Source: a virus. Taken from it: a stretch of DNA of 31,161 bases. Of this stretch, positions 1 through 20,650 are shown one piece after another. Every line of letters starts with the position of its first letter. Position 1 is the stretch's first letter. Under the pieces are notes generated by a model, which ran no database searches, was not told the DNA's origin, and worked only from the letters and a program-made list of their open reading frames with translations. Position numbers and translations under genes: made by a program. The stretch is from positions 1 through 31,161 of IMG/VR virus record IMGVR_UViG_3300027734_000221. One strand, written 5' to 3'.

Positions 1-5
1 CAATA

Positions 6-31
6 AGCCACCCTTCGGGGTGGCTTTTTTT
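6..31 (+). terminator. Intrinsic terminator of an upstream plus-strand unit
   Basis: An 8-bp perfect stem (AGCCACCC with GGGTGGCT) is closed by a TTCG tetraloop and followed by a run of T. This is a textbook rho-independent terminator for a plus-strand gene that lies before the window. Confidence 0.95.
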
Positions 32-59
32 CGCCTAAATTTTACAAGCCCCCCAATTT

Positions 60-94
60 GAAACCAGTTATTTGTCCTCGCGCGCACACCGAGG
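60..94 (+). repeat. Leader module, copy 1 (GAAACCAGTTAT plus CCTCG hairpin)
   Basis: The first 26 bases (60-85) match 841-866 with one mismatch. The block ends in a hairpin, CCTCG (76-80) with CGAGG (90-94), around a GC-rich loop. It lies just after the terminator at 6-31 and before the dyad at 109-130. In both copies the order is terminator, this block, dyad. It may be a non-sigma-70 promoter or an RNA leader; there is no consensus -10 here. Confidence 0.7.
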
Positions 95-108
95 GCGTGG
101 CTAATTAG

Positions 109-130
109 AGTTCCATACCATAGTGGAACT
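109..130 (+). promoter_or_regulatory. Dyad site 1, TTCCAT-N6-GTGGAA
   Basis: Core at 111-128, one mismatch to TTCCAC-N6-GTGGAA. Flanking bases extend the palindrome to a 7-bp perfect stem, AGTTCCA with TGGAACT. It lies in the leader of the first gene, 74 bases before its start codon. Confidence 0.7.
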
Positions 131-204
131 TTACATAAGGGGTTCTGTCCTGTAGAACTGTAAGTAATGAAGCAATAGTGCTTCAGAAAATGAAAGGACA
201 TATT

Positions 205-786
205 ATGTCTAAGAAAGTTGAAATAACATCCTTAAAGGATGCGTCTTACCAAGGTTGTATCAGTGCAGAACGTGGTGTATCAATCGGTAGGTTCATACAT
301 GAGAAGTGCCCGACGTTCTTAGAGTCCATTCCCGATGAGATAAGGGCAGAACTCGAAGAGGGGCAGATGTTACGTTTTAATGAACTCAACCCTGCCCAAC
401 ACTATACCGATAATTGGACACCTTGCGAAGAGGGAACAAAGGGTTCTAAACGTGTAGACATTAATGTAGTGATGGCTTATTCATCCCAAGCATTTGGTAA
501 CTTCCGCAATGATGAACCTATCAAGCATGGTATTCATAAGGGATGGCGGGACGATTGGTCGGACTATAAGTCCAATCGCATGAAGGACTTGAAGAGATAC
601 GTTAAACAGTATCTAGATAGTTTGGCGGGTAAAAAGCGGGAACGTGCCGTTACTAAGGACTTTGCCTTGTGGCTTAAGGAAGATGTCTTAGCAAGTATCA
701 AAGCAAGGGCTAAGACGGCTAAGGGTAGAGGGGATACTACAGTAGACGATGCTGTAGTGAATGCGATAGCTAAAGCTATCAAGTAG
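205..786 (+). CDS. Uncharacterised phage early protein, lysine-rich
   Basis: A 193-residue soluble protein that I do not recognise. The start is placed at ATG 205 because AAAGGA (193-198) sits 6 bases upstream; an in-frame GTG at 178 and an ATG at 190 lack such a site. The N-terminal half is mixed and acidic. The C-terminal half, from about residue 115, is rich in Lys and Arg and predicted helical, which would suit nucleic-acid binding, but this is inference. No signal peptide, membrane segment or cysteine cluster is visible. The gene stands alone: a terminator precedes its leader and another follows its stop by four bases, so it forms its own transcription unit. Its leader carries two repeat elements that recur upstream of the origin-like region. 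An early regulator or host-takeover protein is possible but unproven. Confidence 0.85.
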   Translation: MSKKVEITSLKDASYQGCISAERGVSIGRFIHEKCPTFLESIPDEIRAELEEGQMLRFNELNPAQHYTDNWTPCEEGTKGSKRVDINVVMAYSSQAFGNFRNDEPIKHGIHKGWRDDWSDYKSNRMKDLKRYVKQYLDSLAGKKRERAVTKDFALWLKEDVLASIKARAKTAKGRGDTTVDDAVVNAIAKAIK

Positions 787-790
787 GACT

Positions 791-827
791 AGGGGATGGG
801 GCTAAATTGCCCTGTCCCCTTTTTTTG
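791..827 (+). terminator. Intrinsic terminator after the first gene
   Basis: A 12-bp stem (791-802 with 809-820, two G-T wobble pairs) with the 6-base loop TAAATT runs directly into eight T. It starts four bases after the stop codon at 786. Confidence 0.96.
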
Positions 828-840
828 CGTTTGCTAAACA

Positions 841-876
841 GAAACCAGTTATGTGTCCTCGCGCGCGTGTACGAGG
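841..876 (+). repeat. Leader module, copy 2
   Basis: Copy of 60-94. The CCTCG (857-861) and CGAGG (872-876) arms are kept while the loop differs (GCGCGTGTA-like against GCGCACAC-like), so the hairpin is better conserved than its loop. It begins 13 bases after the terminator at 791-827 and leads into the origin-like region instead of a clear gene. Confidence 0.7.
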
Positions 877-912
877 GAATTCCCCATGCCAACACAAGGT
901 CACTATTTAGCT

Positions 913-930
913 TTCCACGGTCTAGTGGAA
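913..930 (+). promoter_or_regulatory. Dyad site 2, perfect TTCCAC-N6-GTGGAA
   Basis: Perfect copy with spacer GGTCTA, embedded in a longer block (CTATTTAGC before, ATT after) shared with the sites at 1475 and 3276. Confidence 0.75.
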
Positions 931-1061
931 TTGGACTGTGCATCATTTAGAATTCTAAGAACTGACAGGGTTAGATTAAATTCCAAAAACCTATTCAGAA
1001 CTTTTTTACCTGTTTGGAATTTTTTTGCCTTGTAACACTTTGATTTACAAGGACATTCTAA

Positions 1062-1205
1062 AAAAATTCCAAAATTCCAACTTTTTTTAGGAGGGGGTCG
1101 GGTAAATTGAGAAAAAAGAGGGAGAGCAAGGGTTGCTCAGCCAGTGCAACTTTTAACTGCAAGGTAACGTCTCCCCCTAATCCTGTTTGGAATTTTGGAA
1201 TTTTT
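1062..1205. repeat. 19-bp perfect inverted repeat of paired iterons
   Basis: Bases 1062-1080 are the exact reverse complement of 1187-1205. Each arm contains two tandem iterons plus an A or T run, and 106 bases separate them. The first 17 bases of the left arm, plus the A before it, recur exactly inside the primase-helicase gene at 21935-21952. Confidence 0.9.
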
Positions 1206-1250
1206 CTATTATTTATTATTTATTATTACTACTACTACTATATAACATAA
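1201..1250. other. AT-rich tract, possible DNA unwinding element
   Basis: Nearly pure A and T, with a short 7-base repeat (ATTATTT) followed by four ACT units. It directly abuts the right arm of the inverted iterons, where an unwinding element of an iteron origin would be expected. Confidence 0.5.
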
Positions 1251-1361
1251 GGCTTTCAGCCCGATTTTTACCCCGTTAAAAAAATTCCAAAACGCTTTTT
1301 AAACTTGGAATTTTTCTAGAATTTTTTAGCCCATTTTGGAATTTTTACCCCCAGCCTCGTA

Positions 1362-1411
1362 TAAAAAAGTCATACAAGACCATTGACCGAAATGTAAAGT
1401 TAAAGTATAAT
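1362..1411 (+). promoter_or_regulatory. Consensus sigma-70 promoter P1
   Basis: TTGACC (1383-1388), a 17-base spacer and TATAAT (1406-1411). The preceding 21 bases form an A-run and a conserved block. Bases 1362-1393 match 3146-3177 with a single mismatch, so P1 and P2 are duplicates. It should drive the small-gene operon starting at 1523, with transcription beginning near 1418. Confidence 0.92.
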
Positions 1412-1474
1412 AGTCTTGTCGATGGGGAAGAAACCAACGCAGAACACCGCAGACCTCACCGACACTATTTAGCT

Positions 1475-1492
1475 TTCCACGATGTAGTGGAA
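1475..1492 (+). promoter_or_regulatory. Dyad site 3, perfect, in the P1 leader
   Basis: TTCCAC-GATGTA-GTGGAA. It lies about 57 bases downstream of the expected P1 start and 30 bases before the first start codon, so it would be part of the 5' untranslated RNA. Confidence 0.75.
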
Positions 1493-1522
1493 TTTGTTTT
1501 AACTCTAATCAAGGAGAAGTAC

Positions 1523-1714
1523 ATGGGCAAACTAAAGCAAGCCTTAATCGTTTTCGAAGAGCAACGTGCTGGCAAAGGAAGCAAGGAATTAGATCCACGC
1601 TATCGTGGAATGGTAGATAGCGACGAAGAGTGGGCAATCTACGAAGCAGAGTTCAACGACTGGCTCGACAAGTACGAAGCATCGTTCGGTGATGAGAAAG
1701 GGTATCTACCATGA
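1523..1714 (+). CDS. Small uncharacterised protein, first gene of the P1 operon
   Basis: 63 residues, mostly acidic and helical, with a Trp/Tyr-rich second half (EEWAIYEAEFNDWLDKYEA). I do not recognise the family. ATG 1523 is chosen because AAGGAG (1511-1516) precedes it by 6 bases; an upstream in-frame GTG at 1487 has no ribosome binding site and lies inside the leader dyad. The stop overlaps the next start as ATGA, so translation is probably coupled. Dyad site 4 (1593-1610) lies inside the gene over the codons for DPRYRG. Confidence 0.8.
   Translation: MGKLKQALIVFEEQRAGKGSKELDPRYRGMVDSDEEWAIYEAEFNDWLDKYEASFGDEKGYLP
1593..1610 (+). promoter_or_regulatory. Dyad site 4, ATCCAC-N6-GTGGAA (coding)
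   Basis: One mismatch, in the outermost base. Spacer GCTATC. Confidence 0.55.
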
Positions 1715-1911
1715 GTATCAATCTTGATGCGTGGTTAGACCACGAATGGGCGAAAGCCTGTGAAGCAGACGATGCGGAGGAGGGCATGATTCAGTATTGG
1801 GGTGAGCGTTGTCCCGACTACGACAGACAATGCCCGACTTGCCAAGCATGGAAAGAGTTTGAAGCGTCAGGCGAAATCGTTAAGACCTATAAGGAGTTCG
1901 ACCATGATTGA
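1711..1911 (+). CDS. Small acidic protein with a cysteine cluster
   Basis: 66 residues, strongly acidic and Trp-rich. Cys34, Cys41 and Cys44 (C-x6-C-x2-C) could form part of a small metal site, possibly with Cys17 or a His. The family is not recognised. ATG 1711 overlaps the previous stop by four bases. Its own stop lies 8 bases inside the next gene, whose ribosome binding site is within this gene. Position and size fit the quickly evolving small early genes of phages. Confidence 0.8.
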   Translation: MSINLDAWLDHEWAKACEADDAEEGMIQYWGERCPDYDRQCPTCQAWKEFEASGEIVKTYKEFDHD

Positions 1912-2122
1912 TGAGACTTTTAACCCACAGTGCAAGCTATGTGGCGACATCTACGATGAGCAACGGTTTCGACTGGGCTACGCAGTTTGTTGTCCATGCG
2001 GTGATGAAATCGCAAAGAAGGTGAACACCAAGCGGACAGTCGTACCCATGAACAAATCGAACTACATGATGGTAACGGATATGACTATTCTTAAACAACT
2101 TAACCCAAAGAGGACAACATGA
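1904..2122 (+). CDS. Small zinc-ribbon-like protein
   Basis: 72 residues. CKLC (Cys10, Cys13) and VCCPCGDE (Cys29, Cys30, Cys32) give a C-x2-C...C-x-C or C-C-x-C pattern typical of short phage zinc ribbons; the metal and the function are inferred. The tail is Lys/Thr/Met-rich. The start is ATG 1904, with AAGGAG 1891-1896 seven bases upstream. A longer GTG reading from 1802 would run over the whole second half of the previous gene and adds a low-complexity N-terminus, so it is not used. It ends in an ATGA overlap with the next gene. Confidence 0.8.
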   Translation: MIDETFNPQCKLCGDIYDEQRFRLGYAVCCPCGDEIAKKVNTKRTVVPMNKSNYMMVTDMTILKQLNPKRTT

Positions 2123-2355
2123 TAGTCGGCAAGCGGAAGGAAAAGGAATTGGGGATTAGGTGGAATCGCACCAATCGTTCAAAGGAATATAGGGGTAAGC
2201 GAGTCAAACCCTTGACTGCTAGTTTGTATGCTAAGAACGATAGGCAATATAGACGCTATCGTGGTGGGTTGAATGAGTCTATCGTTCATGTAGTTTGCCT
2301 AAGACTTAATCGACCAGTAGATGTCCCAATGTGTCCAATGAGGAGATGGAAATGA
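2119..2355 (+). CDS. Small, very basic protein
   Basis: 78 residues with many Arg and Lys, including RNRTNRSKEYRGKRVK-type stretches and YRRYRGG, so nucleic-acid binding is likely; no known fold is recognised. Start ATG 2119 overlaps the preceding TGA. The ribosome binding site is a weak AGGACA. Its stop overlaps the next ATG. Confidence 0.75.
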   Translation: MIVGKRKEKELGIRWNRTNRSKEYRGKRVKPLTASLYAKNDRQYRRYRGGLNESIVHVVCLRLNRPVDVPMCPMRRWK

Positions 2356-2543
2356 AAGGCGAAGATAAGATATTCCTACTGGAAGTTATCAATGCGGTGC
2401 GTTCGGGGGGTAACGAGATGGCTAGGTTTCTACTAGATAGTGGAAACATAGATAGGATTATCCGTATCAAACGAGAGGTGGGTGCGGATGAACTAGACCG
2501 AGAGTTAATCAAATTGAAGGAGGTGGTGTATGAAAGTCATTAA
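2352..2543 (+). CDS. Small helical protein, unknown
   Basis: 63 residues with alternating charged and hydrophobic residues, predicted mainly alpha-helical; no family recognised. ATG 2352 is preferred over GTG 2331 and ATG 2346 because AGGAG (2341-2345) lies 6 bases before it and because it gives the ATGA overlap seen along this operon. Dyad site 5 lies within it. The gene ends in AAGGAGG, which serves the next gene. Confidence 0.75.
   Translation: MKGEDKIFLLEVINAVRSGGNEMARFLLDSGNIDRIIRIKREVGADELDRELIKLKEVVYESH
2428..2445 (+). promoter_or_regulatory. Dyad site 5, TTCTAC-N6-GTGGAA (coding)
   Basis: One mismatch, which would still pair as G-U in RNA. Spacer TAGATA. Confidence 0.5.
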
Positions 2544-2724
2544 GTTATATCGCAAGCCCGACAAGCCCGAGTTCTACAAGCTGGTGCGAAGCGATGCCCA
2601 TTCTCTATTAGTTCATTACCCGATAGACGTATGCAATCGCAAGCGACAGTCGAGGTGGTTTTACTTTGATGAAGTGTACGTGGACTGGGTTAGAACATTC
2701 ATAGGGGAAGAGCATGGGGTATAG
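2530..2724 (+). CDS. Small protein, unknown
   Basis: 64 residues, rich in Lys, Tyr and Trp, probably a small beta-rich fold (alternating pattern in YKLVRSDAHSLLVHY and SRWFYFDEVYVDWV). No family recognised. A strong AAGGAGG precedes ATG 2530. The gene overlaps its predecessor by 14 bases and its successor by 11, so its place in the operon is secure even though the function is unknown. Confidence 0.75.
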   Translation: MKVIKLYRKPDKPEFYKLVRSDAHSLLVHYPIDVCNRKRQSRWFYFDEVYVDWVRTFIGEEHGV

Positions 2725-3148
2725 ATCAACAGTTGCATATTCAATAAGGTTTATTCCACGACTAAGTGAAATACAAACTACCGATGATGAGATAGAGAAA
2801 GCAAAGGCGACGTTCTTTACATTCCTAGCTGAAGCCAAGGCAAACGAAGACACGGCTGGTGCGTTCCTTGACGAAGACCTAAAGGTAGACGAGGAGAAGT
2901 TAGCTATCTATTTCTTTGCTGACAACGTGAAATGGTACGAATCTTATGAGGATGTTAAGTGCCACGAAGCGTTACTGGATTTGTCAAAAGAGTGGGCTGA
3001 CGATGGTGACTGTTCTAACCCATACATAGGCGGTGCGTTTGCACGTATCGGTGAAGAGATGGAAGATAACGTAGAAGAAGTGTGGGGTCAGGGCGACTAT
3101 GACTGGATAAGTGTGCATCGTTCTATGTCATGCGATTGGATGGATTAA
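2714..3148 (+). CDS. MGYRS-type phage protein
   Basis: 144 residues, strongly acidic. It begins MGYRSTVAYSI, an opening I recall from a widespread family of uncharacterised phage proteins. An aromatic, acidic middle (FADNVKWYESYEDV) precedes a C-terminus predicted to be alpha/beta. No catalytic motif is evident. It is the last gene of the P1 operon. Its stop codon TAA is the start of the repeated block that makes up promoter P2, so no terminator separates it from the next operon. Dyad site 6 (2754-2771) lies near its start. Confidence 0.8.
   Translation: MGYRSTVAYSIRFIPRLSEIQTTDDEIEKAKATFFTFLAEAKANEDTAGAFLDEDLKVDEEKLAIYFFADNVKWYESYEDVKCHEALLDLSKEWADDGDCSNPYIGGAFARIGEEMEDNVEEVWGQGDYDWISVHRSMSCDWMD
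2754..2771 (+). promoter_or_regulatory. Dyad site 6, TTCCAC-N6-GTGAAA (coding)
   Basis: One mismatch. Spacer GACTAA. Confidence 0.45.
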
Positions 3149-3195
3149 AAAAGTCATACAAGACCATTGACTGAAATCATAAGTCAAGTTATAAT
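3146..3195 (+). promoter_or_regulatory. Consensus sigma-70 promoter P2
   Basis: TTGACT (3167-3172), a 17-base spacer and TATAAT (3190-3195), with the same upstream block as P1. It begins inside the stop codon of the preceding gene. It should drive the DUF3150, MoxR and VWA operon, with transcription starting near 3202. Confidence 0.92.
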
Positions 3196-3221
3196 ATACA
3201 TACTGAAGGGAAGGAGTTTTT

Positions 3222-3308
3222 ATGAAAGACTTTTGGGGTAAGTTGTTAATCGTTGTATCGGTAGGCTATTTAGCTTACCACGTGATAGTGGATTTACTTT
3301 TAGCGTAG
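3222..3308 (+). CDS. 28-residue single-pass membrane microprotein
   Basis: The sequence starts MKDFWGK and continues as one hydrophobic segment (LLIVVSVGYLAYHVIVDLLL) long enough to span a membrane, with the positive end first. AAGGAG (3211-3216) is spaced well before ATG 3222. It is the first gene after P2. It is far below usual annotation cut-offs but has every translation signal. Dyad site 7 covers its C-terminal codons (YHVIVD). A holin-like or host-membrane inhibitor role is possible but nothing in the sequence decides it. Confidence 0.65.
   Translation: MKDFWGKLLIVVSVGYLAYHVIVDLLLA
3276..3293 (+). promoter_or_regulatory. Dyad site 7, TACCAC-N6-GTGGAT
   Basis: Two mismatches, but the flanking CTATTTAGC block is the same as at 913 and 1475. 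It is in the P2 leader, before the DUF3150-like gene. Confidence 0.55.
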
Positions 3309-3332
3309 TTCAATTAAACCAAGGAGAAGTGT

Positions 3333-4244
3333 ATGAACATGGAATTAACCAAACCCGATCACCTGATTAGCTTAGCTAGTTCGGCAGTCCTAGTAAGCGT
3401 AGACATCAGCGTATGGTCGGCAACCAAGCAAGACCGAGGTATCAGTGATGAGGTTACTACCTCAAAGAACGCAGACAAACACGCGGGTCGTTACGTTAAG
3501 AATCTCTTAGCTAACCATCCCAAGCATAAGGCAGTCGTTAACTATCGGCAGACCATATACAACTGGCTTCAACGTAGGACTTACAAGTGGAATCAATCGC
3601 AGAATTTATTGCCAAGCGTAGACGTTCCCAAGTTTAAGCAAGAGTATCAAGAACACCAACTAGCTTTCCATGGTTTAGTGGATTCATTAACAACGGACTA
3701 CGATTCAATCGTGTCGGACATGGCTTTCAAGCAAGGCACTATGTTCAACCGAGATGACTACCCGACTAAGGAGCAAGTTCATGCCAAGTTCAGTTTGAAC
3801 CTGTATGTGTCCGAAGTTCCGATGAACGACTTTCGCTGTGGGATAGCAGAGGACATCGCTGATGACTTGTTTGCTACATACAAAAAGCAAGCGCAAGGGA
3901 TTATCGAATCGATTGGGCAAGAACAGTCAGAACGGTTGCTCGAGGTAATGGAGTCCATATCTCATTGTTGTGGTCATGATGAGTCAGAGGTCAATGGCGA
4001 GGTGCGAACCAAACGTCGTAAGATTTACGATACAACGATTCAGAAAGCCCTAGAAATGTGCGAAAGTTTTAAGCGATTTAATCTTAAGAATGATTCAGGA
4101 TTAGAGTCAGCACGTGCATCGCTAGAGAAAGTATTACGTGGTGTGAAGGCAGAGGACATTCGTGATTCCGATGCAGTTCGCCATCATGTTAAGGAAGGGA
4201 TAGACGATATCCTTTCTAAGTTCGGTAGTTTCAATTCAATCTAA
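3333..4244 (+). CDS. DUF3150-like phage protein
   Basis: 303 residues, soluble, mostly helical. The N-terminal LVSVDISVWSATKQDRG resembles the opening of DUF3150 proteins, which I recall as partners of a MoxR-type ATPase and a VWA protein in phages; the assignment comes from memory of the pattern and from context. A His/Cys patch (SHCCGHDE, about residue 211) could bind metal. Start ATG 3333 has AAGGAG 6 bases upstream. The ATPase follows after 16 bases with its own AAGGAG. Together with 4261-5334 and 5455-6780 it forms a three-gene unit. Its job is probably to be a substrate adaptor or structural partner of the ATPase, which is inference. Confidence 0.7.
   Translation: MNMELTKPDHLISLASSAVLVSVDISVWSATKQDRGISDEVTTSKNADKHAGRYVKNLLANHPKHKAVVNYRQTIYNWLQRRTYKWNQSQNLLPSVDVPKFKQEYQEHQLAFHGLVDSLTTDYDSIVSDMAFKQGTMFNRDDYPTKEQVHAKFSLNLYVSEVPMNDFRCGIAEDIADDLFATYKKQAQGIIESIGQEQSERLLEVMESISHCCGHDESEVNGEVRTKRRKIYDTTIQKALEMCESFKRFNLKNDSGLESARASLEKVLRGVKAEDIRDSDAVRHHVKEGIDDILSKFGSFNSI
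3666..3683 (+). promoter_or_regulatory. Dyad site 8, TTCCAT-N6-GTGGAT (coding)
   Basis: Two mismatches. TAGCT precedes it as in sites 2, 3 and 7, and it is read in the same frame as site 7 (LAFHGLVD against LAYHVIVD). Confidence 0.5.
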
Positions 4245-4260
4245 TCAAGGAGAAATACAA

Positions 4261-5334
4261 ATGAGCAAACTCAACTTCAATGCAACTGTAACCATCAACG
4301 AGTTACGTAAGACCATTCCCCTAATAGGTTCATCAATCACACCAATCATACTGTCCGAACCTGGATGTGGTAAGACTTCTCTCTTATCTATGATTCGTGA
4401 GGATTTGGGCGAGGGCTACGACTACATCTATGTAGACTGTCCTGTGAAAGATATGTCAGACATCGGTATGACTATCCCCAACCATGCGAGCAAGTCACTA
4501 GAGTATTACGTGTCATCTCTCTTCAAGCTTGACTCTCCTAAACCAAAGGTCATCTTGCTTGACGAGTTCATGAAGTCACCCAAGCTATTGCAAGTTATCT
4601 TTACCCGTCTGATGTTGGAGAGAATGGTAGGTGACGTTCCACTACCAAGTGGATCGATAGTTTTCGGTACGTCAAACAATTCAAGCGATGGGGTAGGCGA
4701 TACGATGTTGGCTCATGCTGGTAATCGTGTGTGCATTATGGAAATGAGTAAGCCGATTCCGAATGAATGGTTAGAGTGGGCATCGGCTAATGGTATCTCA
4801 CGTGTTGTTCGTGCGTTCGTTGCGTTGTTCCCTCGTACCCTTGCATCGTATCGTGATGGCAATCAAGACGACAACCCATACGTGTTCAACCCTAAAAAGA
4901 CTCAACTCTCATTCTGTTCACCAAGGTCTCTCGCTAAGTGTGATGTCATTGTGAAGAATCGTGATGCGTTAGGTGAGAATGCAACGATGGTCGCTCTTGC
5001 TGGCACGATTGGCTTGGCTGGTGCTGGTGATATGTCAGCGTTCCTATCGCTAGAGAAGACTTTAGTAGATGTTAGGGACATCGTCAAAGATCCAGATGGC
5101 ATTAAAGTTCCTGATGAAATATCAGCACAGTTGATGATTATGTTTCAAGCAGTAGATGTTCTCGAGACACAGGATGAGTTAACGAAGTTCATGAAGTTCG
5201 TTAATAAAGTTCCTAGTTCAGAGATTCAAGCGGTGTTCTTTACCATGATGATGCGTAACACCAAGGCAATCAAGTTGGCACGTAACAATATGCAGATTGC
5301 AGAGTGGGCTAAGAACAACCACGAATTGTTCTAA
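4261..5334 (+). CDS. MoxR-type AAA+ ATPase
   Basis: 357 residues. The Walker A is SEPGCGKTS (Gly35 to Thr39), Walker B ends in Asp101-Glu102 (VILLDEF), and a sensor-1-like Asn lies at 139-140 in FGTSNN. Walker A near the N-terminus and an all-helical C-terminal lid fit the MoxR branch of AAA+ proteins. These form hexameric rings that remodel target proteins, nearly always together with a VWA-domain partner that holds a metal ion. That partner is encoded downstream at 5455-6780, and a DUF3150-like protein upstream. AAGGAG precedes ATG 4261. Cytoplasmic. A cobalt or magnesium chelatase role is unlikely, since no chelatase or tetrapyrrole gene is present. Confidence 0.88.
   Translation: MSKLNFNATVTINELRKTIPLIGSSITPIILSEPGCGKTSLLSMIREDLGEGYDYIYVDCPVKDMSDIGMTIPNHASKSLEYYVSSLFKLDSPKPKVILLDEFMKSPKLLQVIFTRLMLERMVGDVPLPSGSIVFGTSNNSSDGVGDTMLAHAGNRVCIMEMSKPIPNEWLEWASANGISRVVRAFVALFPRTLASYRDGNQDDNPYVFNPKKTQLSFCSPRSLAKCDVIVKNRDALGENATMVALAGTIGLAGAGDMSAFLSLEKTLVDVRDIVKDPDGIKVPDEISAQLMIMFQAVDVLETQDELTKFMKFVNKVPSSEIQAVFFTMMMRNTKAIKLARNNMQIAEWAKNNHELF
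4637..4654 (+). promoter_or_regulatory. Dyad site 9, TTCCAC-N6-GTGGAT (coding)
   Basis: One mismatch, in the last base. Spacer TACCAA. Confidence 0.5.
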
Positions 5335-5340
5335 TTAGTT

Positions 5341-5358
5341 AACCATCATGGAGTGGAA
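5341..5358 (+). promoter_or_regulatory. Dyad site 10, degenerate, in a gene gap
   Basis: AACCAT-CATGGA-GTGGAA has three mismatches. Its right half, GTGGAAAGCT (5353-5362), is the exact reverse complement of the AGCTTTCCAC found in sites 2 and 3. It lies between the MoxR stop and the next start. Confidence 0.35.
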
Positions 5359-5362
5359 AGCT

Positions 5363-5458
5363 ATGTTAGCACTTGGATTATTTATGTGGGGTTTCACCAT
5401 GTTTGCCATAGGCATCGTGGTGGGTTTTTTAATATGTTTAACGAGGACTAAGAAATGA
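5363..5458 (+). CDS. 31-residue single-pass membrane microprotein
   Basis: One hydrophobic helix (about residues 2-26, with GFTMFAIGIVVGFLICL at its core), then a short basic tail, TRTKK. ATG 5363 is preceded by GGAG (5350-5353), and the stop overlaps the next ATG as ATGA, so it is translationally coupled to the metallopeptidase/VWA gene. It sits between the ATPase and its VWA partner, as the 28-residue protein sits before the DUF3150-like gene. The topology would leave the tail in the cytoplasm. It could anchor the ATPase complex at the membrane, which is inference. Confidence 0.65.
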   Translation: MLALGLFMWGFTMFAIGIVVGFLICLTRTKK

Positions 5459-6780
5459 ATAACAAACAAGAAATTAGATTGAAGAAGGCTCATATCGCCT
5501 TGATGAAGCATCCCGAGACTGCTCTCTATTCGGGCGTAATGCTGATGGGTAAGTCAGAGGTGAGTGATGAATCCTTTACGGCATACACCGATGGTGTCAA
5601 CAAGAGATACTCTAAACCATTCCTAGAGACTATCGACTGCGAACCCAAGTTGCGTGGTCTTGTCCTCCATGAGAATCTTCATGTGGCATTGAAACAAATC
5701 CCACGTGGCAAGGATATGTTCAAAGAAGATTCTAAGGTTGCAAATATGGCGGCGGATTTTGTAGTCAACGATATCATCTTCAACATCAAAGGAACTATTA
5801 GCGGAGGCAACGAGGCTATCGTTCAGCTACCCGAAGGTGCGTTGTATGACCCATTCTTTCACAACTGGAATATGCGTGAAGTCTACAACCATATCCGCAA
5901 GGAGAATCCTGAGCGAAGTAAAGGTAAGGGTAGCTCAAGTGGCTCACCTAGTGATGACGGCGAACAAGGTGATGGTGACGAAGATGAATCACAGAATAGT
6001 TCTCCATCACAGGGTGGAAAGCAAGATAGCAATAACAAGATCAAAGCTAATGGCAAAGAGTATGACATGGGCGGTGATGGTTTCGATGAGCATGACTGGG
6101 AATCATTTAAGGACATGACCCCCGAGGAAATCAAGGAATTGTCAGAAGGTATTGACAAGGCTTTGCGTGAAGGCGGTATGCTCGCTGGTCGGATGGGTGC
6201 GAAGATGCCACGTGCAATCGGCGAACTACTCGAACCCAAGATAGATTGGCGAGATGTTTTGCGTGACTTTGTTTCATCAGCTATGAAAGGCAAAGATGAG
6301 TTTACATGGCGACGCATGAACAAGCGTCAGATGGCTAATGATATGTATATGCCAAGCATGGAGAACGAAACCATCGGCGAGGTCATCGTGGCGATTGATA
6401 CGTCAGGCTCGATTGGTAGTGTAGAACTAACCGAGTTCGCTACGGAACTGGCATCGATTTGCGACCTTGTGCAACCCGAGGCTGTGCGTGTTTTGTGGTG
6501 GGACACGATGGTGCATGGCGAACAAGTCTTCAAGCCCGACTCATTCAACAACATCGGAGCATTACTTAAACCATTGGGCGGTGGTGGTACTCACGTGAGT
6601 AGCGTGTCTCAATACATCGTTGAGAAGAAACTTAACGCAGAGTGTGTCATCGTGTTTACCGATGGTTACGTGGAGCATGACATCGAGTGGAATATCGTTC
6701 CACCTACCCTGTGGATGATTACTCAGAACAAGGGCTTGAATGTTCCATGCGGTAAGAAAGTCATGTTCGATAGGGAGTAA
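5455..6780 (+). CDS. Metallopeptidase-like/VWA-domain protein (DUF2201 type)
   Basis: 441 residues in three parts. An N-terminal domain carries VLHENLHVAL, a HExxH zinc signature (His72, Glu73, His76), as in the putative metallopeptidase domain of DUF2201 proteins. A low-complexity Ser/Gly/Asp/Gln linker spans about residues 155-205. The C-terminal VWA domain has a complete metal-ion site: DTSGS (Asp315, Ser317, Ser319), Thr379 in GGGGTH and Asp403 in FTDGYV. VWA proteins of this kind deliver substrates to MoxR-type ATPases, and the cognate ATPase is just upstream. Intact HExxH and metal-site residues suggest an active protein. It may cleave or unfold a host or virion protein; the target is unknown. 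Confidence 0.87.
   Translation: MNNKQEIRLKKAHIALMKHPETALYSGVMLMGKSEVSDESFTAYTDGVNKRYSKPFLETIDCEPKLRGLVLHENLHVALKQIPRGKDMFKEDSKVANMAADFVVNDIIFNIKGTISGGNEAIVQLPEGALYDPFFHNWNMREVYNHIRKENPERSKGKGSSSGSPSDDGEQGDGDEDESQNSSPSQGGKQDSNNKIKANGKEYDMGGDGFDEHDWESFKDMTPEEIKELSEGIDKALREGGMLAGRMGAKMPRAIGELLEPKIDWRDVLRDFVSSAMKGKDEFTWRRMNKRQMANDMYMPSMENETIGEVIVAIDTSGSIGSVELTEFATELASICDLVQPEAVRVLWWDTMVHGEQVFKPDSFNNIGALLKPLGGGGTHVSSVSQYIVEKKLNAECVIVFTDGYVEHDIEWNIVPPTLWMITQNKGLNVPCGKKVMFDRE
6002..6019 (+). promoter_or_regulatory. Dyad site 11, CTCCAT-N6-GTGGAA (coding)
   Basis: Two mismatches. It lies in the low-complexity linker part of the VWA gene. Confidence 0.35.
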
Positions 6781-6782
6781 TC

Positions 6783-6977
6783 ATGGGCGATGGAGGACTC
6801 TCACGAATTAAGCATGACCTAGTGAAAGACTTGATGGAGCAATATGGAAAAGGTGCGTATTCCTATGCTCTAGAAAGACTTATTTCGTATCAAAACAAAG
6901 GCGACGACATGGGTGAGAACCTATGGCGAACTGTAATTGCAGATTTAGATGAACACTTTAAAGGAGAAGGACAATGA
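6783..6977 (+). CDS. Small protein, unknown
   Basis: 64 residues, helical, with mixed charge. The N-terminal part (residues 6-35) looks like a helical bundle of the kind found in small adaptor proteins, but no family is recognised. ATG 6783 follows the VWA stop by two bases, with GGGAG in the end of that gene as ribosome binding site. Its own end contains AAGGAGAAGG for the next gene and overlaps it as ATGA. The tight coupling on both sides suggests it works with the VWA module or the following unknown protein. Confidence 0.75.
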   Translation: MGDGGLSRIKHDLVKDLMEQYGKGAYSYALERLISYQNKGDDMGENLWRTVIADLDEHFKGEGQ

Positions 6978-7996
6978 AAGCATTAACGTGGGACAGACTG
7001 ACTGACATTAAAAATACTGTTAAGCCATACAGGGGGACAACCAATCGGTTTCCTGTTGGTGACAGGCGACACAACCACAAAGACTTTATTGCCGAGGAAC
7101 GTAATGGCGAGCAAGTGTATGTAATCCGTTATGGTTATGGGTGGGAGTGCAAAGATGACCACACTAAGGAGGAGTGGCTTGTTAACCAAAACACCAATCA
7201 ACCTAACATCCACGAGCGGACTACTAACGGAGTCACCACCTATGAAAGTTATAGAACAATCCCTAGAGAGTTAGGCATCGTGCGTTCGGACAATACGTTC
7301 GAGTTCACACACTATAACTACGGACAGGGCGATAACATAATGCTTAGCAACTGGAGCAGAGGATACTTTTGTAGGAGTTCACGACATGGTGGAATGATAT
7401 ATAGAGCGAACGATATCTTCCATCCTATCTTCAAGGGCATGAGAGTTAACTGCGAGACGATGATGCCTCACAAGGATAGCGAGTACCAAGTTACTGGCAA
7501 GCGTGTAAGCCGTAAGGATGCTAAGGAGTTTCTTAACCGATACACAGACTTCTACCAAGTTAACGAAGTCATGCTTAAGACGATGGAGTGGAAGGGTTAC
7601 ATGGAGACTGCGGTTGATGTAATGAAGTCATTAGACTTGACGACAGAAAACTGGTCTCTTATGCAAGACGAGAGGGACAAACTTATCAAGTTCGCTGATG
7701 AGAATCTAAATACTTGTCCACTAGATGCTGGAATCGCATTTGCCTTAGCGTATGACGTAATGAATACTTATTCAAGAGTTCGTGCGTTCGTAGACCCCAA
7801 TGCGAGTAGCCACTATGTAAGAGAGGTAGAGTTGGATATTTTGTTCGCCAATATGAAACGCAAGCTGAACAAGGAGTTGTATAAGCGTAATCCATCGGTA
7901 ATGAAACTCACAGAGTATGTACCAAACCAACCTTATCCGCCTAGCGAGTGGGGTATAGATATTACAGTCAATGGCAAAGAAGTAGAACAACTATAA
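6974..7996 (+). CDS. Uncharacterised phage protein, 340 residues
   Basis: Family not recognised. Residues 1-150 are rich in Tyr, Gly, Arg and Asn with beta-strand-like patterns (YVIRYGYGWECKDD, TFEFTHYNYGQGDN). Residues 175-290 are largely helical, and the C-terminus is Pro-rich (PNQPYPPSEWG). No signal peptide, membrane segment or nucleotide-binding motif is seen. The ATGA overlap with the small gene upstream and an AAGGAG-led gene eleven bases downstream keep it in the P2 operon. The two-part architecture suggests a binding domain plus a helical domain. Dyad site 12 (7716-7733) lies inside. Confidence 0.75.
   Translation: MKALTWDRLTDIKNTVKPYRGTTNRFPVGDRRHNHKDFIAEERNGEQVYVIRYGYGWECKDDHTKEEWLVNQNTNQPNIHERTTNGVTTYESYRTIPRELGIVRSDNTFEFTHYNYGQGDNIMLSNWSRGYFCRSSRHGGMIYRANDIFHPIFKGMRVNCETMMPHKDSEYQVTGKRVSRKDAKEFLNRYTDFYQVNEVMLKTMEWKGYMETAVDVMKSLDLTTENWSLMQDERDKLIKFADENLNTCPLDAGIAFALAYDVMNTYSRVRAFVDPNASSHYVREVELDILFANMKRKLNKELYKRNPSVMKLTEYVPNQPYPPSEWGIDITVNGKEVEQL
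7716..7733 (+). promoter_or_regulatory. Dyad site 12, GTCCAC-N6-CTGGAA (coding)
   Basis: Two mismatches. Spacer TAGATG. Confidence 0.3.
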
Positions 7997-8006
7997 GGAG
8001 AAGTAA

Positions 8007-10788: not shown

Positions 10789-12669
10789 GTGAACCTAATC
10801 ACCCTAGATTTTGAGACGTACTACGCTCAAGATTACTCGTTAACTAAGCTAACAACTGAGGAATACATCAGGGATAGACGCTTTGAGGTTATCGGTGTTG
10901 CGGTTAAGGTCGGCGATGGTATCGCTGAATGGTTTTCTGGCTCACACCTTGACATCCAAAAATACCTTTCCACGTACCCGTGGAACGATTCTGCTCTCCT
11001 TTGTCATAACACGATGTTTGATGGGGCTATCCTTGCATGGCGATTTGGCATCAAACCAAAGCTATATCTCGATACTTTGTGCATGGGTAGGGCTACCAAC
11101 GGTGTTGATGTGGGAGGCTCTTTAGCCTACCTATCTGAGCGTTACAAGTTAGGCAAGAAGGGTACAGAAGTCATTGACGCTAAAGGTAAGAACATAACTG
11201 GTTTCTTAAATAGCGAGCTTGCCCAGTACGGCGAATATTGTAAGAATGATGTGGAGTTAACTTTTAAGCTCTTCCAAGTATTGTCGAGTGCGTTTCCAGC
11301 AGACGAATTACAACTAATTGATTTGACTTTGCGGATGTTTATTAATCCCATACTGGAGGTTGACGATGCTTTATTGATTGAGCGTCTTGAAGAACTTAAA
11401 GATGAGAAGTTCAAGCTACTTGGAACGCTTAAAGAGAAGTTAGGATGCGAGCTTGAAGAAGACGTACGCAAGAAGTTAGCCAGTAATAAACAGTTTGCTC
11501 AAGTGTTAGAAGACTTTGGTATTGAAGTGCCAATGAAGGAAAGCAAGACTACTGGCAAGCTAACCTATGCGCTGGCAAAGAACGATACAGGATTCATAGC
11601 GTTAACAGAACACGAAGACCCATTCATCCAGCAACTCGCTGCGGTGCGTTTGGGAACTAAATCAACTATTGAAGAGTCAAGAATAGAGAGGTTCATAGAT
11701 GTCGGTTCAAGGAACAAAGGTCGATTACCTATTCCGCTTAAATACTACGGGGCGCATACGGGTCGTTGGGCAGGGTCGGATAAGGTCAATTTCCAAAACC
11801 TACCGAGTCGTGACAAGAAGAAAAAAGCCCTTAAGAACGCAGTCGTTGCACCCGAAGGTTACGCGGTTATCAACTGCGATTCGTCTCAAATTGAGGCACG
11901 TGTACTCGCTTGGCTTTCGGGTCAGGAAGACTTGGTTAAAGAGTTTGCCGATGGGGACGATGTTTACTCCATCTTTGCGTCGAAGATATACGACTACGAA
12001 GTCACAAAGAAAAATCCCGTTGAAAGGTTCGTGGGTAAGACCTGCATTCTTGGACTGGGATACGGCACTGGCGCATTAAAGTTACAGCACACACTAAAGA
12101 CTAGTCCGCCAGGCGCTGATCTCACTAAGGAGAAGTGTGACGAGATAGTTAAATTGTACAGAGACACTAACGACATGATCGTTAAGTTATGGAGAGAAGG
12201 CGATAAGGCTTTAAAGTCCATGGCTGACTGGCAACCTGAGTTTGAGCCGTTTGACTATGGTATGCACGGGTGCGTAAAGGTAACTCAAGAAGGCTTTAAA
12301 TTGCCAAACGGGTTATACATCCGCTACCCCGACCTCAAACTCAACACTGATGAAACTAAAAGCGGATACGAGTACAAGTCACGCAAAGGCCCCGTGTCTC
12401 TATGGGGTGGTTCTATTGTGGAAAACGTAGTTCAAGCTCTTGCACGGATCATCGTGGGCGAGCAGATGTTAAAACTTACCGAGCGTTATCGACCCGTGTT
12501 AACTGTTCACGACGCTGCGGTGTGTGTAGTACCCGAAGAAGACGTAGACGAGGCTTGTGCTTGGATCGTCGAGGTCATGTCAACACCACCAGACTGGGCT
12601 AAAGGACTGCCTGTGGCTTGTGAAGCTCAAGTCGGTAAAAATTATGGGGAGATGGAAGAATGGCGATGA
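10789..12669 (+). CDS. Family A DNA polymerase with 3'-5' exonuclease
   Basis: 626 residues, the size of phage polymerases that lack a 5' nuclease. Exonuclease motifs: DFET (Asp7, Glu9), HNTMFD (His73 to Asp78) and YCKND (Tyr150 to Asp154). Polymerase motif A has Asp364 in DSSQIEAR. Motif B is Arg413-x3-Lys417-x7-Tyr425-Gly426. Motif C has His574-Asp575 in TVHDAA, where family members usually have HDE. All catalytic residues are present. Start GTG 10789, with AAGGA six bases before. It follows a terminator and overlaps the next gene by 10 bases. It replicates the phage genome with the primase-helicase at 20782. Dyad site 16, a perfect copy, lies in the exonuclease part. Confidence 0.96.
   Translation: MNLITLDFETYYAQDYSLTKLTTEEYIRDRRFEVIGVAVKVGDGIAEWFSGSHLDIQKYLSTYPWNDSALLCHNTMFDGAILAWRFGIKPKLYLDTLCMGRATNGVDVGGSLAYLSERYKLGKKGTEVIDAKGKNITGFLNSELAQYGEYCKNDVELTFKLFQVLSSAFPADELQLIDLTLRMFINPILEVDDALLIERLEELKDEKFKLLGTLKEKLGCELEEDVRKKLASNKQFAQVLEDFGIEVPMKESKTTGKLTYALAKNDTGFIALTEHEDPFIQQLAAVRLGTKSTIEESRIERFIDVGSRNKGRLPIPLKYYGAHTGRWAGSDKVNFQNLPSRDKKKKALKNAVVAPEGYAVINCDSSQIEARVLAWLSGQEDLVKEFADGDDVYSIFASKIYDYEVTKKNPVERFVGKTCILGLGYGTGALKLQHTLKTSPPGADLTKEKCDEIVKLYRDTNDMIVKLWREGDKALKSMADWQPEFEPFDYGMHGCVKVTQEGFKLPNGLYIRYPDLKLNTDETKSGYEYKSRKGPVSLWGGSIVENVVQALARIIVGEQMLKLTERYRPVLTVHDAAVCVVPEEDVDEACAWIVEVMSTPPDWAKGLPVACEAQVGKNYGEMEEWR
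10968..10985 (+). promoter_or_regulatory. Dyad site 16, perfect TTCCAC-N6-GTGGAA (coding)
   Basis: Spacer GTACCC extends the palindrome inward to TTCCACG with CGTGGAA (7 bp). It is the last copy found in the window. Confidence 0.6.
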
Positions 12670-17471: not shown

Positions 17472-19040
17472 GTGGAAATAGTAGAAAACCAAGTAGTTAA
17501 ATTCAGTATTGCTTCAGATAAAGTTAATTTAATAACAAACTATCTAGAAAAAAGCGAAGTCTTAGAAGACGACGGCAAGACTGCAGACATGGTGGTCTAC
17601 TGGGGTATCAAAGAGATGCAGCATTTAGTAAGAATCTATGGTGAAAAAGTTCCTTCACCGATACAAAAGGATTACAAGTGGCCTGGGATGTACACTCCCT
17701 TCAAACACCAAGAAACTACGGCTGCGTTTCTATCACTACAAGACAGGGCTTTCTGCTTCAATGAAGCAGGTACGGGCAAGACTTCCTCAGTAATTTGGGC
17801 TGCCGACTATTTGATGACTCAAGGCTTGATAAAGCGCGTTTTAATCATTTGCCCGTTATCTATTATGTACTCCGCTTGGCAAGCTGACATCTTTAAAACC
17901 GCTATGCACCGCAGCGTTGCCGTAGCCTACGGCGATGCCAATAAACGCAAGAAAGTTATCAACGGAGTCTATGAGTTTGTCATCATAAATTACGACGGGG
18001 TAGGAATTGTTGCTGAAGATATAAGTAAATTAGGGTTTGACCTAATTGTAATAGATGAAGCTAACGCTTATAAAACAGCTACGACCAAAAGATTTAAAAC
18101 AATGGCAAAAATACTGAAACCTTCTACAAAACTTTGGATGCTTACTGGCACACCAGCTTCTCAGTCCCCGCTTGATGCGTTTGGACTGGCTAAACTTGTA
18201 AACCCAAATGGTGTACCTAAATACTTCACTGCGTGGCGGGATAAGGTAATGCACCAAATAACACGGTTTAAGTACGTACCAAAACCTACCTCACGGCAAG
18301 ATGTTTACAACGCTTTGCAACCAGCTATTCGGTTTGAGAAAGCTCAGTGTTTGGATTTACCGCCTGTAATGTACCAGACCCGTGAAATACCACTTACCCC
18401 ACAAGTTAACCGTTATTACAAAGCTATCAAAGATCAGATGCTTATTGAAGCGGCAGGGGAAAAGATTAGTGCAGTCAATGCGGCGGCAAAGTTAACAAAG
18501 TTGCTACAAATTTCGGGTGGGGCAGTCTATACAGATACCCGTGAAGTAGTGGAGTTTGATGTGTCTCCACGACTAAATGCCCTGATGGAGGTGTTAGATG
18601 AGACGGAACATAAAGTCATTGTGTTTGTTCCCTATCGTCACACCATTGAGTTAGTTTCTAAACATTTACAAGGAGAAGGTGTCACTAATGAAATTATTAG
18701 CGGAGACGTAGGAGCAAAAGAGCGAGGCGATTTAATTAATCGTTTCCAAACCTCAGAATTTCCACGAGTCCTTATTATTCAACCTCAAGCTGCATCGCAT
18801 GGTGTGACTCTTACTGCCGCCAATACAGTAGTATTTTGGTCTCCAGTCATGAGTGTGGAAACATACTTGCAATGCATAGCTCGTATTGACCGTTATGGTC
18901 AGCAAAACAAAATGACCGTTGTGCATCTACAAGGTTCAGAAGTAGAACGCAAGATGTATGAGATGTTACAAGGGAAAGTTACTAGCCACGAGAAGCTGGT
19001 TGATCTGTACAAAGAAGAGTTAGGAATAAAAGATGAGTGA
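17472..19040 (+). CDS. SNF2-type DNA helicase/translocase
   Basis: 522 residues. Helicase motifs in order: Walker A NEAGTGKT (Gly100 to Thr104), motif II DEAN (Asp195 to Asn198), motif III LTGTP (224-228), and motif VI RIDRYGQ (Arg471 to Gln477), whose R-x-x-R-x-G-Q form is characteristic of SNF2-family enzymes. The compact size is typical of phage members. These translocate on duplex DNA and help to remodel forks or recombination intermediates, here probably with the VRR-NUC and RecB-like nucleases. GTG 17472 with AAAGGA five bases before is chosen. It overlaps the next gene by 8 bases. Confidence 0.93.
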   Translation: MEIVENQVVKFSIASDKVNLITNYLEKSEVLEDDGKTADMVVYWGIKEMQHLVRIYGEKVPSPIQKDYKWPGMYTPFKHQETTAAFLSLQDRAFCFNEAGTGKTSSVIWAADYLMTQGLIKRVLIICPLSIMYSAWQADIFKTAMHRSVAVAYGDANKRKKVINGVYEFVIINYDGVGIVAEDISKLGFDLIVIDEANAYKTATTKRFKTMAKILKPSTKLWMLTGTPASQSPLDAFGLAKLVNPNGVPKYFTAWRDKVMHQITRFKYVPKPTSRQDVYNALQPAIRFEKAQCLDLPPVMYQTREIPLTPQVNRYYKAIKDQMLIEAAGEKISAVNAAAKLTKLLQISGGAVYTDTREVVEFDVSPRLNALMEVLDETEHKVIVFVPYRHTIELVSKHLQGEGVTNEIISGDVGAKERGDLINRFQTSEFPRVLIIQPQAASHGVTLTAANTVVFWSPVMSVETYLQCIARIDRYGQQNKMTVVHLQGSEVERKMYEMLQGKVTSHEKLVDLYKEELGIKDE

Positions 19041-20338: not shown

Positions 20339-20650
20339 ATGTCACGGACATACAGTCAAGAACTAATCAACACGGTTAGTACGTTAAACCCCAACTACCC
20401 AGGGGTTGCGTTAGCAAAAGCATGCATACAAGCGAATCTACCCTCCAAGTATGTAGCTGTAGCACTAAACGTAACTAGGATGACGCTCTATAGCTGGTTC
20501 CGTGGCAAGCCTATTCGCTTTAAGAATCAACAACTTGTCGAAGTGTTTACAGACTTAGTGGAAAGTGATACGGCTAAAGGGTTACTACCAGCTAAAACTA
20601 CTAGCCATGCTAAGGCATACTTAGAGGACATGATCGGACAAAAGATTTAA
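20339..20650 (+). CDS. Small helix-turn-helix protein
   Basis: 103 residues. Residues 36-57 (YVAVALNVTRMTLYSWFRGK) form a clear helix-turn-helix with an aromatic recognition helix and a basic end, as in Cro-like or transposase-type DNA-binding domains. The C-terminus is helical and may dimerise. Start ATG 20339 follows AAGGA. It ends its operon: a hairpin and then a terminator follow. It is a candidate binder of the dispersed dyad, being small and probably dimeric, but nothing direct connects them. Confidence 0.75.
   Translation: MSRTYSQELINTVSTLNPNYPGVALAKACIQANLPSKYVAVALNVTRMTLYSWFRGKPIRFKNQQLVEVFTDLVESDTAKGLLPAKTTSHAKAYLEDMIGQKI

Follow-up and report, generated by a model that had tools for sequence, protein, structure and literature searches.

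DUF927 helicases have been described from staphylococcal islands and cassettes, where Cch contains the DUF927 domain and the Rep protein of SaPIs binds iteron origins via its C-terminal domain (PMC7581432). Members of this family have been published as self-loading, iteron-binding initiators, which apparently act as two hexamers (PMC7581432). In this study, a phage locus was compared with these replicons in a virus record of 31,161 bases, and the whole of this stretch is called the window. The record is apparently a fragment of a phage genome of about 64 kb, judging by the nearest of its near-complete relatives, two contigs of 63,694 and 64,185 bases. Its longest intergenic gap (787-1523, 737 bases) holds a cluster of iteron-like sites, and we consider it likely on sequence grounds that the region 979-1343 is the core of the phage replication origin, which would be of a bipartite iteron type. 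No DNA-level relatives of positions 1-8000 were found among phage records, and no Rfam match was found in the window, so that a known RNA family was rejected. The features of the locus and the genes referred to below are as follows.

791-820, plus strand: terminator-like hairpin after the upstream gene, at the left limit of the gap; kept there in relatives
841-866, plus strand, with a second copy at 60-85: conserved 26-bp box, GAAACCAGTTATGTGTCCTCGCGCGC / GAAACCAGTTATKTGTCCTCGCGCGC
901-932, plus strand: left box, CACTATTTAGC with the hairpin TTCCAC-N6-GTGGAA; conserved
979-986, minus strand: iteron 1, exact TTGGAATT, outer left, directed away from the core
1014-1021, plus strand: iteron 2, exact TTGGAATT, inner left, directed towards the core
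1065-1080, minus strand: left tandem iteron pair (1065-1072 and 1073-1080), 8-bp period; kept in relatives
1081-1186: core between the pairs, 106 bp, 52.8% AT, no significant fold
1187-1202, plus strand: right tandem iteron pair (1187-1194 and 1195-1202), mirroring the left pair
1203-1250: AT tract, putative DNA-unwinding element, 87.5% AT
1283-1290, minus strand: iteron 7, exact TTGGAATT, right half, directed towards the core; inverted pair with 1305-1312
1305-1312, plus strand: iteron 8, exact TTGGAATT, right half, directed away
1336-1343, plus strand: iteron 9, exact TTGGAATT, right half, directed away
1383-1411, plus strand: strong, conserved promoter of sigma-70-like type, TTGACC-17-TATAAT, directed into the gene at about 1524
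1463-1494, plus strand: right copy of the CACTATTTAGC / TTCCAC-N6-GTGGAA hairpin box
10789-12669, plus strand: family A DNA polymerase with 3'-5' exonuclease
17472-19040, plus strand: SNF2-family helicase gene, the sole gene family present in all 18 genomes compared
20339-20650, plus strand: helix-turn-helix protein of 103 aa, encoded immediately before the primase-helicase; could bind the iterons in its place or as an accessory
20782-23691, plus strand: proposed initiator of 969 aa, with AEP primase-polymerase, DUF927 helicase and winged-helix-like domain

Nine exact copies of TTGGAATT are present within the 365 bp of 979-1343, as the initial annotation had it; four are on the minus and five on the plus strand, and a tenth copy lies inside a gene at 21939. 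Over the full 31 kb of the window 1.72 copies would be expected, and ten were never reached in 100 shuffles. When the gap 787-1523 alone was shuffled 5,000 times, the mean was 0.09 sites, the maximum was two and the mirror pair never appeared, and in 300 shuffles of the same gap any 8-mer was found at most five times. A cluster of short sites in non-coding DNA above chance is characteristic of iteron origins. The arms 1062-1080 and 1187-1205, which hold the tandem pairs, proved to be a perfect 19-bp inverted repeat around 1081-1186 (also listed as 22 nt at 95%), and the further inverted pair and the adjacent AT-rich tract described earlier are both present. Iteron origins usually have direct repeats only, whereas the sites here lie on both strands with a mirror core; direct repetition was taken as not strictly defining, and 979-1343 is therefore treated as a variant iteron origin. 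It also differs from lambda O-type origins, whose iterons lie within the O-type gene, in that its iterons are intergenic.

The core had been described as having its own hairpins. A 6-bp stem does exist at 1124-1138, but the core folds no better than shuffled sequences (z -0.57 and -0.63), and the hairpins were rejected as a key feature. The motif AGTGCAA, which contains GTG, is situated in mid-core at 1143-1149 and is present in the cores of 19 of 73 relatives, as compared to 0.6 expected. Related PrimPols start at GTG (PMC8718748), and the GTG inside AGTGCAA is a possible primase start signal. The AT tract carries ATT/ACT triplets on the top strand, which are TAG/TAA triplets on the bottom strand. 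Iteron origins have an AT-rich region beside the sites, and the position of this one on the right side is conserved: relatives average 77% AT right of the right pair, compared with 59% within the core and 65% on the left side. The longest bottom-strand TAG/TAA run right of the right pair averaged 2.65 triplets versus 1.52 in shuffled sequences, and four or more triplets were found in 34 of 103 loci on the right and in none of 109 on the left. Judged by eye, the tract is often followed by a AAGNACTTAC-like box. With its strand-specific triplets, it is a putative DNA-unwinding-like element, and the triplets have the polarity that a filament or a 3'-to-5' helicase starting from the right pair would call for.

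When viral contigs were searched for a mirrored arrangement of two tandem pairs, leaving the end bases free, at least 119 stretches matched. A rough count that assumes uniform base use puts the chance expectation at about 0.02, and in an empirical control there were 12 matches in 257 Gb of genomes from bacteria and archaea. Loci retrieved via the unrelated 193-aa neighbour protein have the same sites in the same places. The mirror layout is thus borne out by its conservation and is no accident of the 31,161-base contig. The last two iteron bases vary among relatives (TT, CA, CT, TA or GA), and the end bases of site pairs agree in 74% of cases within a locus versus 39% between loci; L011 and L012, for example, have TTGGAACA at the corresponding iteron places and unchanged hairpin boxes. 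The loci also share their gene order: on the left, the minus strand encodes the portal, the terminase and a small gene, and on the right, the plus strand encodes the 303-aa, AAA, VWA and further genes. Together with the agreeing end bases, this order indicates one phage family in which the sites follow one binding protein. The sites outside the pairs keep their order across 73 non-redundant relatives. Left of the left pair, plus-strand sites lie mostly within 50 bp and minus-strand sites at 50-100 bp; right of the right pair, minus-strand sites lie at 50-100 bp and plus-strand sites at 100-150 bp. The extra sites are directed outward in 213 of 347 cases (213 vs 134, P about 3e-5). By this order the two halves mirror each other, and the right one has the AT tract as an insertion. 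Eleven named phages were checked, several of them in part (KPP25, RHph_TM27A, Rollin, phiA008, 023Pt_psg01, DSL-LC04, HTVC027P, HTVC023P, Pag-Yong1, CRP-901 and CRP-810), and no mirrored TTGGAA pairs were found in them. Directly after the early small genes, 3333-6780 encodes a conserved trio of a 303-aa protein, an AAA ATPase and a DUF2201 metallopeptidase/VWA protein, of which all three have homologues in Pag-Yong1 and the AAA and VWA proteins in RHph_TM27A.

One main dense iteron cluster per genome is found in 17 near-complete relatives of 52-65 kb, and in all 17 its distance from the minimum of the cumulative GC skew is 0.5-11.5% of genome length, the mean being 4.6% versus 25% at random for these mutually related genomes. 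In G008, which was examined gene by gene, the skew minimum coincides with a junction of divergent genes, about 3 kb away from the element, so transcription may cause the skew. The whole-genome skew, proposed initially as a check, agrees with an origin in these relatives, but it tracks gene direction too. The contigs G007, G020, G024 and G025 end within 500 bp of the element. Since the core is present in diverged copies at the two ends of G007, strain variation seems to be concentrated at the origin. Contig ends were rejected as genome ends because their distances from the element differ.

The initial annotation saw no recognised initiator in the window, and this was wrong, as the 969-aa product of 20782-23691 has a Pfam DUF927 match. 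This protein is composed of an AEP domain (about residues 1-200), the DUF927 domain (about 500-760) and a C-terminal winged-helix-like domain (about 855-955). Profiles of its family matched the PDB entries of Cch (5dgk, E 3.9e-17) and of a SaPI protein (8tch, E 1.2e-15), the latter being titled an initiation-of-replication protein of SaPIBov1. An AlphaFold model was built with 53 sequences (mean pLDDT 84). Its residues 388-964 aligned to 5dgk with Z 32 over 484 residues and to 8tch with Z 27 over 466 residues, and its residues 1-199 aligned to 6zp9, the PrimPol of phage S-2L, with Z 19. The last domain has the helix-helix-strand-strand order of a typical winged helix in the model, and the Cch helix-turn-helix profile (HTH_56) matched weakly in 6 of 53 relatives. 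In sequence and fold, the protein matches the SaPI/SCC self-loading initiator helicases. The earlier suggestion that the binding protein may be new is hence unsupported, this family having already been published as iteron-binding initiators (PMC7581432). Two other candidates were rejected as initiators: only about half of the loci that have sufficient flank contain the 193-aa protein (205-786), and the 303-aa protein (3333-4244), although conserved, is without a family, its alignment columns track phylogeny, and Foldseek against the PDB gave no match at E 0.001 or better.

The phage thus resembles SaPIbov1 and the SCCmec Cch system in the helicase family, in the fold including the C-terminal domain (Z 27-32), in the short iterons and in having a DUF927 AAA+ helicase, a C-terminal DNA-binding domain and a primase in one module. 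In contrast to both, its primase and helicase are fused, its 8-bp iterons form a mirror array that has a triplet AT tract on one side, and the replicon, a phage of roughly 52-65 kb, encodes its own DNA polymerase. The origin of SaPIs lies beside rep, directly downstream of the helicase gene, whereas the iterons here are about 19.5 kb from the primase-helicase gene. The alpha protein of P4, the Rep of SaPI5 and the NrS-1 polymerase likewise combine an AEP or other primase with a hexameric helicase in one protein, and in P4 and SaPI5 this same protein recognises the origin; unlike the phage protein, they belong to other helicase families (SF3/D5 and DUF5906). The bacterial oriC with the DnaA-trio motif (PMC4980987) is similar in its one-strand TAG/TAA triplets beside initiator sites, with matching polarity. 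The likeness is one of sequence pattern only; there are no DnaA boxes in the region, the sole TTWTNCACA match of the window lying at 12417, and a DnaA-dependent oriC was rejected as no DnaA boxes are near the AT tract.

Given an origin, the DUF927 protein would on balance be the one that binds the iterons. In Streptomyces hokutonensis (L323, from the cellular scan), a PrimPol gene and a gene for DUF927 with the Cch-type helix-turn-helix are followed by 13 TTGGAA sites, of which the seven left of a core are on the minus strand and the six right of it on the plus strand. This mirror cluster beside primase and DUF927 genes is similar to that of the phage, and it differs in its separate primase and helicase genes, its GC-rich flanks, its cellular contig and the lack of an AT tract of the phage kind. 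On a Pseudoruegeria chromosome (L327, 3553-6433), a PrimPol-DUF5906 gene precedes nine mirrored TTGGAACA sites; this type of site is therefore found with another helicase family as well. Several other cellular matches adjoin housekeeping genes and may be due to chance. Two DUF927 phages, G035 and G063, show the mirror layout too, their sites reading TAGAACA instead of TGGAACA. In the AT-rich phage G018 (L068, 3600-4260), mirrored TTGGAAGA sites surround an AT-rich core, and no DUF927, DNA polymerase A or AAA gene was detectable there despite the mirror element; conversely, no such element was detected in the near-complete DUF927 phages G075 and G080. Mantel tests of protein distance against iteron difference gave P 0.15 for DUF927 and P 0.07 for its C-terminal part, and none of the 12 protein families tested was significant. 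Residue-level covariation was rejected as a means of naming the binder because it was dominated by phylogeny.

Lambda O recruits the helicase to its origin, and in a similar manner the iterons could be bound by the 103-aa helix-turn-helix protein, which would then recruit the primase-helicase. The gene of this protein stands directly upstream of the DUF927 gene in most genomes, and its product has weak Pfam matches to HTH_3 and Phage_rep_O (E 0.036). Its recognition helix has Thr before Arg in all five genomes with the consensus TTGGAATT and Ser in 12 of the 13 others, but four of those five genomes form one clade, and the Mantel test gave P 0.067. The protein was undetected in G018 and G021, and G015 and G024 have marginal helix-turn-helix matches of another type, yet the iteron core TTGGAA is unchanged in all of these; in the Streptomyces module, moreover, PrimPol and DUF927 are the genes identified beside the sites. 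We regard this arrangement as unlikely, although the protein is a serious rival for iteron binding.

The probable origin comprises two mirror-symmetric half-sites, each with an outward tandem TTGGAATT pair and single sites, the right half also holding the AT-rich putative unwinding tract. If the DUF927 primase-helicase is the binder, it would attach to the iterons through its C-terminal winged-helix-like domain and assemble as two helicase rings on the mirrored pairs. These rings might melt the AT tract right of the right pair and then leave in both directions, the AEP domain would start priming, perhaps at the GTG inside AGTGCAA in the middle of the core, and the phage DNA polymerase would extend the primers. 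The specific proposal of a head-to-head ring pair of SaPI/Cch type on the mirror core, with a DnaA-trio-like TAG/TAA track giving a bidirectional start, is put forward tentatively and is considered rather unlikely. If it is true, one protein recognises the origin, melts, unwinds and primes, and its iteron specificity has changed repeatedly across the phage family. The mirror core and triplet tract make two-ring loading directly testable, and a minimal origin with one protein is assayable in an E. coli plasmid system. The analysis predicts an origin and a matching initiator for an uncultured phage family with at least 119 element-bearing viral stretches, and it would tie a phage origin to the DUF927 helicases; the varying iteron endings offer a natural series on how such initiators read DNA.

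Clustered sites are typical of operators as well, and the iterons might be bound by a transcription repressor or activator with no origin present, which we hold to be quite improbable. The conserved sigma-70 promoter comes immediately after the region on its right, and there are promoter-like boxes on both sides of the region. However, no iteron overlaps the promoter, the nearest ending about 40 bp upstream of its first hexamer. Stoperators are found at many promoters, whereas these genomes have one dense cluster each and mostly two to four TTGGAA in 450 bp outside the main cluster. An origin accounts better for the mirror pair, which is invariant, for the AT tract with its triplets and for the primase-helicase genes that neighbour such sites in Streptomyces and Pseudoruegeria. 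A dual use of the sites, for the origin plus autoregulation, is still conceivable. The initial reading of the region as origin-like gains comparative support from conservation, the concerted change of the sites, the AT tract, the nearby skew minimum and the mirror iterons beside primase-helicase genes elsewhere. A partition, packaging or recombination site is very improbable: in relatives the terminase genes are about 3-6 kb away and several contigs (G007, G020, G024 and G025) end at or near the element, but the window proteins that were scanned included nothing ParA/ParB-like and no integrase, the contig ends lie at varied distances and, with the two diverged copies in G007, fit assembly breaks between strain variants, and the AT tract and site number are, to our knowledge, unlike known pac or cos sites.

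The hairpin boxes and the promoter around the iterons were absent from the initial annotation. The two copies of the 26-bp box (60-85 and 841-866) each stand after a terminator-like hairpin. The two TTCCAC-N6-GTGGAA hairpins beside the iterons come after CACTATTTAGC. Further such hairpins are present at 107-130 (a variant) and 10968-10985 of the window, and relatives have them in other places as well, with six sites in G007 and four in G008; these dispersed hairpins are perhaps 5'-UTR or promoter elements. The hairpin boxes were rejected as degenerate iterons, as they are unchanged in L011 and L012, where all iterons go from TT to CA.

Among the named phages, Pseudomonas phage KPP25 (L140, 26219-26895) has 8-bp TGTTACGA sites in an analogous intergenic place; they occur on both strands, and one 8-bp tandem pair lies next to an AT tract. 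KPP25 is also similar in its 64 kb genome and related DNA polymerase. It differs in the site itself, the absence of a mirrored pair of pairs and the absence of a DUF927 match. Pag-Yong1 (L202, 18000-18500) has six copies of GTCATACA in the analogous intergenic place, and the repeat clusters of KPP25 and Pag-Yong1 are possible origins of these named phages.
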